Origin: Lysinibacillus contaminans
GTDB lineage: Bacteria; Bacillota; Bacilli; Bacillales_A; Planococcaceae
DNA: 64,000 nucleotides
Assembly (NCBI RefSeq): GCF_001278945.1
Contig: NZ_LGRV01000007.1
Span: forward strand, 176,842-240,841
Direction of reading: 5' to 3'
Position numbers and translations under genes: made by a program. The notes beneath the pieces are model-generated. The model was not told the DNA's origin, ran no database searches, and saw only the letters and a program-made list of their open reading frames with translations. Each line of letters opens with the position of its first letter. Position 1 is the first letter of the stretch. This document shows positions 6,560-60,392 of this stretch, one piece after another.

Positions 6560-6942
6560 AAAAAAGCTTTATCTTCATTCAGAAGATTCCCTCCACTATA
6601 GATTGTGAGTGGAATGGGAGTTTAGTTTTTTCAGTGGGTATCTAAACGCTGACTGAAAGAAGATAAAGCCTCCAGCCGATGTCACAGATGTTTTTTGCGC
6701 GAAAGCGAAGCGTCAGCAGCAGATTTTTAGGGAGTCAATTTAGGAAGTTAGCCTAAGGTCGTAGCATCCATGCGACAACGGCTAACAGACCTACATCGTG
6801 TAGGCCTAAGCACAATTCAAAATCTAGACGCATTGTTTTTCTATGCGAAAGCGAAGCGTCAGCAACAGTCGCATTGTTTTCCTGTGCGAAAGCGAAGCGT
6901 CAGCAACAGGTACAATTACGCTGAGTCGTAATTGATTGAATA
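6560..6942 (+). repeat. Modular hairpin-rich dispersed repeat, copy A
   Basis: About 380 bp, matching the reverse complement of 60003-60380 and, in reduced form, 19072-19285. Left module: GCTTTATCTTC (6566-6576) pairs with GAAGATAAAGC (6659-6669). Next is the 24-mer GCGAAAGCGAAGCGTCAGCA (about 6698-6717, again near 6845 and 6887). A nested structure follows: AGATTTT/AAAATCT (6721, 6819) encloses GTTAGCC/GGCTAAC (6747, 6780) and CCTAC/GTAGG (6790, 6800). It ends in a small palindrome, AATTACG/CGTAATT (about 6914-6933), 18-28 bp before the next start codon. Whether it acts as DNA or RNA is unknown. Confidence 0.8.
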
Positions 6943-16616: not shown

Positions 16617-16945
16617 GGACCCGTTGATTTCCGTTCCAGGCGGACGCGTTCCAGGGGGCGAGCCTTGAGCCGCTTCGTCGCTTACGCTCCTGCAGGGTCT
16701 CAAGTTGCTCGCTGATCCCCTAGGAGTCGCCGCCTTTCACTCCAATCAACTAGAATTTTCTTGGATCATCACCAAAAGCCGGAGATGACATTTTGAATAA
16801 AGTGTTTGTTGATTGGAGTGAAGCCAGCGTGACTCCTTGGGGACTAGCGTCACAGATAAGACCCTGGAGCGAGCATAGCGAGTGAAGCGGCTTATCGGAC
16901 GCCCCCAGGAAAGCACGCTGGCGCAACGGAAATCAATCCCATGTT
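16617..16945. repeat. Inverted pair of a structured dispersed repeat
   Basis: Left copy about 16617-16756 and right copy about 16806-16945, head-to-head around a 50-bp centre. Each is about 135 bp, bounded by TTGATTGGAGTGAA and ACGGAAATCAA, with CTCC, GACCCTG and GAGCG blocks in between. Each copy's two ends pair with each other by different bases: GGCGG/CCGCC on the left, GCCAGCGTG/CACGCTGGC on the right. I recognise this general repeat from Bacillaceae genomes but know no accepted name. Confidence 0.75.
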
Positions 16946-19003: not shown

Positions 19004-19301
19004 ATTAATTTAATTCAGTGGTAGTTCATTATCTATTTAGATAGTGAAATGAAATATCAGGTTCAGTGTTGATTCAGTAGGCATTCAAACACCTACTGAA
19101 TTAAATTAAAGCCTCCGGCGGATGTCATGGATTTTGAAAGGAGTTAATTGTGCGAGCACAATTCAAAATCCGGACGCATTGTTTATCTGCGCGAAAGCGA
19201 AGTGTAACGAAGCGTCAGCGGCAGATGTTTTTTGTACCGAAAGCATAGCGGCAGGTACAATTGCGCCGAGGCGTATTGATTGGAATAAGGAGGAATGGAA
19301 C
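19004..19301. other. 298-bp gap inside the leucine operon filled by repeat copy B
   Basis: 19004-19071 has no clear feature apart from the short inverted run TATCTATTTAGATAG near 19030. The remainder is repeat copy B. No consensus promoter was recognised for the last gene. Confidence 0.5.
19072..19285 (+). repeat. Modular dispersed repeat, copy B (short form)
   Basis: Hairpin ATTCAGTAGG/CCTACTGAAT (19072, 19092); then GCCTCCGGCGGATGTCA, as in the other copies. The outer stem GGATTTTGAA/TTCAAAATCC (19129, 19162) encloses only a simple AATTGTGC-GA-GCACAATT hairpin in place of the larger cluster of copies A and C. Next come a GCGAAAGCGAAG core and a terminal near-palindrome (AATTGCGCC, GGCGTATT). 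It ends just before the AAGGAGG of the carboxyltransferase gene. Confidence 0.75.
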
Positions 19302-30217: not shown

Positions 30218-30376
30218 TTAAAAAGCCTCTCAAGATGTTTCGGCAGGAGAGGCACGGAAATAACCTCTCTTATCTTTCAAAACAAAAACTGTTTTGCAGG
30301 ATTTAGCACCTTTCTGATGTTCAGATGGTTGCCGAGCTTCACAGGGCCAGTCCCTCAGCTACTCTTGATAAGAGAT
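30218..30376 (-). ncRNA. SAM-I (S-box) riboswitch with terminator, controlling metQNI and the oxidase
   Basis: On the minus strand the aptamer runs from CTCTTATCAAGAG (P1 5' side, about 30376) through GAGGGACTGGCCC, CTCGGCAACC and AGGTGCTAAATCC to GATAAGAGA (P1 3' side, ending about 30266). All are hallmark S-box sequences. The expression platform follows: GCCTCTC pairs with GAGAGGC (30225-30253) ahead of TTTTT. SAM binding should favour the terminator, so the operon is on when SAM is low. Confidence 0.97.
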
Positions 30377-39819: not shown

Positions 39820-40045
39820 TAAAAAAAGCCACTTCAATCCCTTTATAAAAAGGACGAGTAACCGTGGTGCCACCTTTGTTCGCAATAGTTGCGCACTCAA
39901 ACCTCCTGTAACGGGGAGTATCACCGTCCTCACATTTTGATGAGGATGCTCCGAAGTCCATTCGCAAGTGTGTACTGCTGATTTACACCAACCATCAGCT
40001 CTCTATAAGTACAAAAGCTTGTTACTACTCTTCATCTACGCATGT
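39820..40045 (-). ncRNA. T-box riboswitch specific for tRNA-Trp, upstream of trpB
   Basis: On the minus strand: Stem I with AGAGAGCTGATGGTTGG, the specifier segment GCGAATGGACTTCGGAG (codon UGG, complement of 39958-39960), and the T-box core AAGGTGGCACCACGG (complement of 39862-39876). A terminator follows whose right side ends GTGGC and then TTTTTTT. The bulge TGGC can pair with a GCCA tRNA end, fitting tRNA-Trp. Uncharged tRNA-Trp should prevent termination and allow trpB expression. Confidence 0.95.
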
Positions 40046-40056
40046 TATTGAAATGA

Positions 40057-40085: not shown

Positions 40086-40097
40086 CAAATCTTTTTT

Positions 40098-40125
40098 CTG
40101 TGCGAAAGCGAAGCGACAGCAACAA
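40098..40125. repeat. Fragment of the dispersed-repeat core
   Basis: CTGTGCGAAAGCGAAGCGAC then AGCAACAA: the 24-base core found in copies A-C, alone here, between the trpB promoter and the queT terminator. Confidence 0.6.
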
Positions 40126-40145
40126 CTCTTTTCTCCGCGAAAGCA

Positions 40146-40668: not shown

Positions 40669-40675
40669 ATTCATT

Positions 40676-40717
40676 TCTCCTTAGTTTTTTTTCGTGGGAT
40701 GGTTACGAACCACGGTG
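40676..40717 (-). ncRNA. PreQ1-I riboswitch overlapping the queT ribosome site
   Basis: On the minus strand: ACCGTGGTTCGTAACCATCC, CCACG, then AAAAAAAACTAAGGAG. P1 is CGTGG/CCACG; the A-rich tail with CTAAGGAG is the diagnostic 3' part, and it contains the Shine-Dalgarno AAGGAG. Ligand binding should hide that site and block translation of queT. Confidence 0.92.
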
Positions 40718-40733
40718 TTTTGCACAAGTAGGT

Positions 40734-51600: not shown

Positions 51601-52620
51601 TGATGTTGAGCGGCCTACCCTTGATGTTGAGCGGGTTACCCTTGATGTGGAGCGACTTACAATTGATGTTGAGCGACTTACCCTTGATGTTGAGCGGCCT
51701 ACCCTTGACGTTGAGCGGTTTACCCTTGATGTTGAGCGGGATACCCTAGATGTTGCGCGACTTACCCTTGATGTTGAGCGACTTACCCTTGATGTTGAGC
51801 GGCCTACCCTTGACGTTGAGCGGTTTACCCTTGATGTTGAGCGGGATACCCTAGATGTTGCGCGACTTACCCTTGATGTTGAGCGACTTACCCTTGATGT
51901 TGAGCGGCCTACCCTTGACGTTGAGCGGTTTACCCTTGATGTTGAGCGGGATACCCTAGATGTTGCGCGACTTACCCTTGATGTTGAGCGACTTACCCTT
52001 GATGTTGAGCGGCTTACCCTTGATGTTGAGCGACTTAGCCTTGATGTTGAGCGACTTAGCCTTGATGTTGAGCGACTTACCCTTGATGTTGAGCGGCCTA
52101 CCCTTGATGTTGAGCGGTTTACCCTTGATGTTGAGCGGGTTACCCTTGATGTTGAGCGACTTAGCCTTGATGTTGAGCGACTTAGCCTTGATGTTGAGCG
52201 ACTTACCCTTGATGTTGAGCGGCCTACCCTTGATGTTGAGCGGTTTACCCTTGATGTTGAGCGGGTTACCCTTGATGTTGAGCGACTTAGCCTTGATGTT
52301 GAGCGACTTAGCCTTGATGTTGAGCGACTTACCCTTGATGTTGAGCGGCCTACCCTTGATGTTGAGCGGTTTACCCTTGATGTTGAGCGGGTTACCCTTG
52401 ATGTTGAGCGACTTAGCCTTGATGTTGAGCGACTTAGCCTTGATGTTGAGCGACTTACCCTTGATGTTGAGCGGCCTACCCTTGATGTTGAGCGGTTTAC
52501 CCTTGATGTTGAGCGGGTTACCCTTGATGTTGAGCGACTTACCCTTGATGTTGAGCGACTTACCCCTGAAGTTGAGCGACCTACTCTTGATGTTGAGCGA
52601 CTAGCCCCTGAAGTTGAGCA
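51601..52620. repeat. 21-bp minisatellite, about 48 units, with higher-order repeats
   Basis: Unit TGATGTTGAGCG-NNNN-TACCCT (21 bp). The four-base slot varies (ACTT, GCCT, GTTT, GGTT, GGAT) and orders the array. Three copies of a five-unit block (105 bp, marked by GGAT then TAGATGTTGCGC) run about 51664-51981. After a short run of other units, four copies of a six-unit block (126 bp, marked by ACTTAGCCT units) run about 52027-52530. Degenerate units (ACCCCTGAAG) lie at the right end. One plus-strand frame stays open for 329 codons as LTLDVER heptads, but it has only a GTG start with no ribosome site, so I do not call it a gene. Confidence 0.95.
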
Positions 52621-52667
52621 ATCTACATCATTATAGGATACCTCAACTCATATTCTCGAAATTACAA

Positions 52668-59994: not shown

Positions 59995-60392
59995 ATTATC
60001 AATTCCGCCTTGGAGGAATTGTTGCTGACGCTTCGCTTTCGCACAGAAAAACATTGCGTCCAGATTTTGAATTGTGCTTAGGCCTGCGTGATGCAGGTCA
60101 GTTAGCCGTTGTCGCATGGATGCGACGTAATTAGGCTAACATCCTACTAATTTCAAAATCTGCTGCTGTCGCTACGCTTTCGCGCAAAAAACAACTGTGA
60201 CATCTGCCGGAGGCATTGGGCCAACAGGATGTTGGTCACTCAGGCGTTGCCGCAGGATGCGGCGTTCTTAGCCAGAGTTCCACTATTCAGCCGGTGTTTG
60301 GACTCCCACAAAAGATGCTAAACCTACATTCATCTCAATAGCTATAGAGGTGGGAGTTTTCCTCTGAATGAAGATAAAAAGAGGCGATGCCG
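59995..60392. other. Convergent gap between lipL and rsfA filled by repeat copy C
   Basis: Apart from the repeat nothing is seen. No classic terminator was found for either gene; the repeat's hairpins may do that job. Confidence 0.5.
60003..60380 (-). repeat. Modular hairpin-rich dispersed repeat, copy C
   Basis: Reverse-orientation match to copy A over most of its length. Contains two core units (60023-60046, 60162-60186), outer stem AGATTTTGAA/TTCAAAATCT (60062, 60152), GTTAGCC/GGCTAAC (60101, 60134), and CCTGC/GCAGG (60083, 60093) where copy A has CCTAC/GTAGG. It adds two small hairpins of the form CCAACATCCTGTTGG (about 60221-60235) and CCGCATCCTGCGG (about 60250-60262), absent from A. 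Ends in AATTCCTCC/GGCGGAATT at the left edge (60001-60020). Confidence 0.85.

Follow-up and report, generated by a model that had tools for sequence, protein, structure and literature searches.

Copies A, B and C, three sequences in a 64,000-nucleotide stretch of the Lysinibacillus contaminans genome (the window), belong to a dispersed, intergenic repeat with covarying hairpins and with hairpin cassettes nested in it at several positions. On balance, we favour a non-autonomous, MITE-like mobile DNA element, of which the three would be copies and whose hairpins would be recognised by an enzyme acting in trans. The first-pass annotation had described a modular repeat under selection for folding, and this part of its interpretation is supported, but the inner cassette already has a name and the RAYT-like mobiliser that it envisaged did not emerge.

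Plan, copies and hosts of the element

The window is G000:C2:176842-240841, in a genome of 4.10 Mb and 9 contigs. The similarity of A, B and C is far above chance, and their status as copies of a dispersed repeat is confirmed: the core GCCTCCGGCGGATGTCACAG, allowing up to 3 mismatches, has 36 matches in the genome and none in the reversed control. BLAST with A against the genome returned 64 matching pieces, A itself among them. A genome-wide search with a covariance model, as the first-pass annotation had advised, was run with model R1, built on 11 copies from this genome, and gave 38 matches at E ≤ 0.01, 3 of which are partial antisense matches on the stem II palindrome. The genome contains about 35–40 copies, which are strongly folded and measure roughly 120–380 bp.

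A, B and C share one plan (Table 1). From 5' to 3' it consists of a left TTTAA or TTTAT, stem I, AAAGCCTCCGGCGGATGTCACA, stem II, GGACGC, stem III and GAT, with the core GCCTCCGGCGGATGTCAC lying between stems I and II. Stem II is GATTTTG..CAAAATC with a variable apical hairpin, and stem III is AATTACGCC-GA-GGCGTAATT followed by GAT. Stem I, overlooked in the first reading, is the outermost and most variable stem (arms TTTATCTTCATTCAG/CTGAAAGAAGATAAA in A and TTAATTTAATTCAG/CTGAATTAAATTAA in B); it is either a simple hairpin (loop 4–33) or a version with a longer inner domain (loop 57–104). The 5' flank is TTTAT for A and C and TTAA for B. Copy B has a short stem II that lacks the Bacillaceae-1 cassette, and by eye a terminator-like hairpin and T-run lie upstream of C.

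Several details of the first description hold at the level of bases. The change from CCTAC/GTAGG in A to CCTGC/GCAGG in C is correct, as is the closing palindrome, AATTACG/CGTAATT in A and AATTCCTCC/GGCGGAATT in C, except for one mismatch in C. The 24-base core is common to all three copies as AGCACAATTCAAAATC(T/C)(A/G)GACGCA, but two positions vary and the longest identical string is 16 bases. The outer stem arm GATTTTGAA is unaltered in B and C, whereas A has GATTTTTAG instead, and B truly starts about 60 bases further 5' than first proposed.

Table 1. Features of the element in the window (window coordinates)
Feature	Position	Strand	Remarks
Copy A, whole element, 364 bp	6573..6936	+	ends AATTGAT directly before M20 peptidase gene
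Left target-like pentamer TTTAT of A	6568..6572	+	can pair with ATAAA, stem I 3' foot
Stem I 3' arm in A, CTGAAAGAAGATAAA	6653..6667	+	partner is 6568-6582
Conserved core of A, GCCTCCAGCCGATGTCACAGATG	6668..6690	+	
Mini-hairpin in A, core GAAAGCGAAGCGTCAG	6691..6721	+	two others at 6837-6867, 6878-6908
Bacillaceae-1 (RF01690) cassette within stem II of A	6737..6804	+	55.9 bits, E 1.5e-7
Stem III of A, AATTACGCTGAGTCGTAATT	6914..6933	+	
Copy B, whole element, 272 bp	19009..19280	+	enoyl-CoA hydratase gene on one side, carboxyl transferase gene on the other
Copy C, whole element, 376 bp	59998..60373	-	3 bases from stop of convergent lipoate ligase gene
Bacillaceae-1 cassette within stem II of C	60083..60150	-	56.5 bits
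Second Bacillaceae-1 cassette in C	60221..60287	-	replaces outer part of stem I 3' arm; 78.8 bits
Solitary mini-hairpin, rest of element absent	40094..40128	+	adjoins opposite-strand T-box leader

The window also holds ordinary T-box, SAM and PreQ1 leader RNAs (39847-40047, 30267-30374 and 40675-40719 (-), respectively) and, at 51647-52636, a 329-codon open frame made almost entirely of 7-residue repeats (e.g., LTLDVER) in a 21-bp repeat array.

R1 matches occur in 61 of 121 genomes of the family, our own included, and in 13 of its 19 genera, with up to 35 candidates scored per genome under stricter filters. A class-wide sample gave matches in 18 of 398 genomes, 16 from the same family and 2 from one other; here up to 10 candidates were scored per genome, so that weak matches were lost. 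An exact 31-mer retrieved 93 stretches from named genomes, mostly, among the 80 matches listed by name, from Sporosarcina, Psychrobacillus, Metasolibacillus, Filibacter and Lysinibacillus, and also from ‘Bacillus ndiopicus’ and ‘Arthrobacter beigongshangensis’. The assembly of the latter, REN13, carries many copies (L074, L079, L093, L099 and others) in loci of 39–45% G+C and is probably a mislabelled, Sporosarcina-like genome. The Sporosarcina copy L080 had no match among 72,556 plasmid records and 50,697 phage records. The single viral-contig match lies on a contig whose length (28,485) equals that of a Metasolibacillus contig from the 31-mer search, and is probably chromosomal. At the site of copy L025, several relatives (among L198-L226) have a divergent core, AAAGCCTCAGACGGA..ACAGATTTTGAC; this has the look of a sister subfamily, one that may escape R1.

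Covariation, strand and the choice between RNA and DNA

The proposal of a repeat under pairing selection is supported by covariation in 68 copies from seven genomes and four genera, chosen by BLAST or model score and not by the 31-mer. In this set, both partners have changed in 24 of 32 pairs, against a shuffle mean of 9.6 and with none of 500 shuffles reaching that number; 95.4% of cells pair, falling to 24–42% when the partner is slid by 1–3 columns; and the covariation score is 0.214 versus 0.087. A larger alignment free of covariation, the outcome that would have spoken against the proposal, was not obtained. The 98 copies (88 distinct) from the 31-mer loci behave similarly, with 96.8% of cells pairing and both-side changes in 22 of 32 pairs versus 6.5 in shuffles (0/500 reach 22). 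Both alignments were fitted to the model and hence lean towards it; a MAFFT alignment of 11 copies has both-side changes in 9 of 32 pairs and a covariation energy term of about zero. Stem I, which lies outside the model, occurs in many paired versions (TTTATCTTCATTCAG/CTGAATGAAGATAAA, TTTAACTTTATTCAG/CTGAATAAAGTTAAA, TTTGACCTTATTCTACAGG/CCTGTAGAATAAGGTCAAA and others), and at least 12 of its 16 bases are matched in 94 of 137 copies, the arms being chosen as best complements (5 further copies near locus ends were skipped).

Three Psychrobacillus species carry orthologous copies between fliF and fliG (L092, L096 and L131; genes by eye). Their stems II and III differ by paired changes, and the L092 copy is partly decayed; the differences reflect either compensation in place or the arrival of another copy in its stead. 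DNA folds of two copies prefer to pair the core GCCTCCGGCG at long range with CGCCGAGGC of stem III; this pairing was dropped because it does not covary: in one of its pairs, the partner of C is A in 32 and G in 22 of the 68 distinct copies.

Does pairing act in a transcript or in DNA? If pairs were kept in a transcript, G-U would be expected above A-C. We left the outermost pair of stem II out of these counts, as it is doubtful as a real pair; it is U-G in 83/88 and 58/68 copies. The first set then gave 23 G-U versus 45 A-C in the core with stems II–III, 11 versus 15 in stem I, and 16 versus 14 when counted by column; the second set gave 41 versus 33. With the outermost U-G pair left out, G-U is not in excess over A-C. 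This would fit pairing that is needed during movement, after which copies decay without strand preference, as an argument short of proof: the A-C count can be inflated by a single lineage, and the result would be reversed if the U-G pair, which speaks for RNA if real, were counted. Pairing in an opposite-strand RNA was considered from the A-C excess of the first set including stem I (60 A-C versus 34 G-U; p 0.01 under independence of cells, which does not hold); the excess was not repeated in the second set, so we assign no strand.

The orientation of the copies bears on the same question. Neighbouring genes within 600 bp were found for 122 of 137 copies, only 2 of which overlap a predicted gene; the setting counts are approximate, as the gene calls rest on raw ORFs. 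When strand bias was counted, as had been suggested at the outset, copies between codirectional genes were sense in 73 cases and antisense in 15 (24 and 2 in our own genome, 49 and 13 at other loci; p about 3e-10 if copies are independent). In 57 of 114 copies, the next 60 nt downstream contain a ribosome-binding-site-like motif with a start codon. Replication, instead of transcription, was examined as the source of the bias in G032, whose first gene is dnaA by eye: 12 of 19 copies lie on the leading strand, and in codirectional pairs all 9 sense copies are leading and all 3 antisense copies lagging, so that the two causes are confounded there. In G018, where the origin is only putative, 6 of 11 copies are leading and 5 lagging.

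The sense bias is not predicted by a DNA element unless targets or tolerance are biased, and it favours a different reading, namely that the repeat is mainly a functional RNA: a mobile 5'-leader or intercistronic mRNA fold that sets downstream translation or stability and is kept by selection. The motifs before start codons, the same-site fliG copies with their paired stem changes, the strong RNA folding (z -5.4, both for L063 and for A) and the frequent U-G pair point in that direction, and about half of the bcr repeats of Bacillus cereus are transcribed, in UTRs, operon spacers or ORF-free units, according to PMC3446304. The remaining pairs, however, have no G-U excess, decayed remnants occur at the L025 and B sites, and the flanking genes, judged by eye, have no evident function in common; in B. 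cereus, the same study correlates only bcr3 with decay rate. We regard a mainly functional RNA as unlikely. On the preferred reading, mobile DNA and not a working RNA may be the source of paired changes in intergenic RNA-like motifs.

Retroposition through an RNA copy, or insertion into transcribed single-stranded DNA, would also account for the sense bias and for positions after stop codons and terminators, and several copies do begin, by eye, within T-runs of terminator type or at the stop codon of an upstream gene. Both T-runs of terminators and TAA stops are, however, themselves sources of TTTAA or TTTAT in the sense direction, and we hold this route to be very improbable.

Insertion sites and the search for a mobiliser

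Two clean comparisons of filled and empty sites place the entry of the element 3' of TTTAA without target-site duplication. Between glpK and glpD (names by eye) our genome reads TTTTAA[CTTTATTCAG...AATTGAT]AATATAACCGATGGGGG, and in 21 relatives (L168-L188) the insert is absent, the sequence being TTTAAATCATAGCTAATGGGGG or similar; the flanks are about 75% identical, so that the ends are uncertain by a base or two. The glpK search covered 32 genomes, 2 of which were left out of the comparison; 8 further loci held a glpK relative with different neighbours. In Filibacter, L142 reads ATATTTAA[element]AGGAG (ATTTAA[element]AGGAG), against ATATTTAAAGGAG (ATTTAAAGGAG) in the empty Sporosarcina site L104. 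Both empty sites are of the TTTAA type, and TTTAA is present there in insert-free relatives too. L025 and B were set aside as empty sites, as many relatives hold decayed or divergent copies with undefined ends. Among the six comparisons, covering five locus pairs, to which the Filibacter case belongs, only L142 into L104 was clean: L120/L154 are both filled, and L043/L096, L104 into L142 and L130/L145 aligned too poorly.

A good stem I is present in 94 copies; 65 of these have the left end TTTANC and 29 do not. The form TTTA(A/T)C accounts for 64, and one more is of the TTTACC type (TTTAC). The 64 readable ends comprise 39 TTTAT, 24 TTTAA and 1 TTTAC. For 62 of 65 copies, the fifth base of the target is complementary to its partner in GNTAAA, the 3' foot of stem I (T-A 39, A-T 22, C-G 1), a concordance somewhat inflated by choosing the arms as best complements with the target base included. 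Because TTTAA pre-exists at both empty sites, this match suggests, but does not prove, that the target is chosen by pairing with an internal base.

MITEs are short, non-autonomous, dispersed elements with target-site duplications and terminal inverted repeats. The present repeat is likewise short, dispersed and non-autonomous, with presence and absence at orthologous sites. No duplication appears at the two clean empty sites, the right flank begins with the left pentamer in only 1 of 64 copies, and no terminal inverted repeats were seen between the two ends by eye.

Which enzyme could move it? Hairpin ends, duplication-free insertion 3' of a T-rich target and an internal match to the target base are features of the Y1 transposase class (IS200/IS605, RAYT). 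The element resembles in these respects a REP- or PATE-like derivative moved by a Y1 enzyme: its ends are hairpins, it enters 3' of a short, T-rich sequence with no duplication, and an internal base matches the target base. Yet our genome holds a single, truncated Y1_Tnp (PF01797) match, and across 121 genomes Y1 does not track the element (40/61 carriers, 35/60 non-carriers; Fisher p 0.46). Five of 13 genomes with at least 20 element matches lack Y1_Tnp, and the element core is absent from all 31 Y1_Tnp loci examined; searching with PF01797 and in these loci yielded no transposase for the element, no autonomous copy and no shared ends. We regard a Y1 mobiliser as unlikely.

Under the favoured mobile DNA reading, (i) an enzyme acting in trans would recognise the element in its folded, single-stranded DNA form; (ii) this enzyme would pick TTTA(A/T) targets complementary to the (T/A)TAAA that makes up the 3' foot of stem I, and the element would end with the stem III hairpin and GAT; (iii) stem sequences would drift and their pairs be kept because only pairing matters; and (iv) inserted copies would probably become transcript leaders or intercistronic spacers and mostly decay. 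Tens of copies per genome would then be natural leaders or spacers with a testable effect on operons. Going further, the element might represent a new class, in which a (T/A)TAAA guide reads TTTA(A/T), stem sequences can vary freely, cassettes from known RNA families such as Bacillaceae-1 hop from one such host to another and the enzyme is not Y1; we put this forward only tentatively, as an unlikely extension. If the pairing of guide and target is true, it would be a naturally variable targeting system.

Nested cassettes and known systems

The element had been said to match no named family. This stands for the whole element, which has no match in Rfam 15 (none at E ≤ 0.1 for the core in L063, L032, L080 and L081), but the inner hairpin cassette of A and C is RF01690, Bacillaceae-1. 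In A, B and C, only three cassettes pass the gathering score of 35 of its covariance model (Table 1), and copy B and the remainder of the element have no RF01690 match. Judged by eye, 11 of the 16 RF01690 matches in the genome lie in the element, two of them in L027 and L034, which are degenerate copies; 3 others belong to a different repeat and 2 stand alone. That the element is merely the known Bacillaceae-1 RNA, as matches at three places in A and C might imply, is scarcely credible: with 5 of 16 matches outside the element and none in B or in the core of the four loci, RF01690 is a cassette and not the element, and the idea is refuted for the whole element.

The different repeat is found at L022, L035 and L058 (G000:C1:516959, C1:1657249 and C2:479315). 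It reads GATTGGAGTGGAGGC.., or GAATGGAGTGGAGGC.. in L035, and its start resembles an inverted repeat at window positions 16736-16822.

A second cassette, a mini-hairpin of about 35 bases with the core GAAAGCGAAGCGTCAGC (up to 2 mismatches), occurs at 36 places against none in the control, at several positions in the element and also on its own. Its structure is claimed solely from paired changes of the arms seen by eye (TGCGC/GCAGCA, TGTGC/GCAACA, TGTACC/GGTACA); folded alone as single-stranded DNA, two mini-hairpins did no better than shuffles, of which 136 and 171 of 200 were as good. At L037 (G000:C1:1873454), a mini-hairpin sits within another sequence of repeat-like character (GGAGCGTAAGTCGGCGACTCCAGCGGG..), a hint that such hairpins may move between repeat families.

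A 2010 listing of candidate structured RNAs includes RF01690 (PMC2864571). A later paper, PMC4333381, calls its function unknown, proposes that its reverse strand binds CsrA as a sponge, and reports that its discoverers were unsure of the strand. Its nesting suggests a mobile cassette instead of a CsrA sponge, and an orphan Rfam family gains a host and an explanation. Compared with the Bacillaceae-1 RNA, the element contains it within stem II, and in C also in stem I, but that RNA is only a 67-nt module that occurs also in another repeat and alone.

REP/BIME sequences with RAYT and IS200/IS605-derived elements are hairpin-ended and non-autonomous and make no target duplication. The present element is like them in all three respects, but no linkage to, or correlated occurrence with, a RAYT/Y1 transposase was found.

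A literature search, with most subscription papers outside its coverage, found no description of the core element. Going by their description, the nearest known kind appears to be bcr1-bcr3 of B. cereus. According to PMC6542083 and PMC3446304, the 18 bcr families are intergenic repeats of 100–400 bp from one bacterial group; bcr1-bcr3 form group A, described as MITE-like and frequent in UTRs or operon spacers, and bcr1 is present in tens of copies, its mobility being associated with a TTTAT motif. The present element differs in its host group (16 family genomes and 2 of one other family in the 398-genome sample, which possibly lacks B. cereus) and in having TTTAT or TTTAA on the left only. Like bcr1, it is a short, intergenic, group-restricted repeat with TTTAT at the insertion, seen at 39 of 64 readable left ends.
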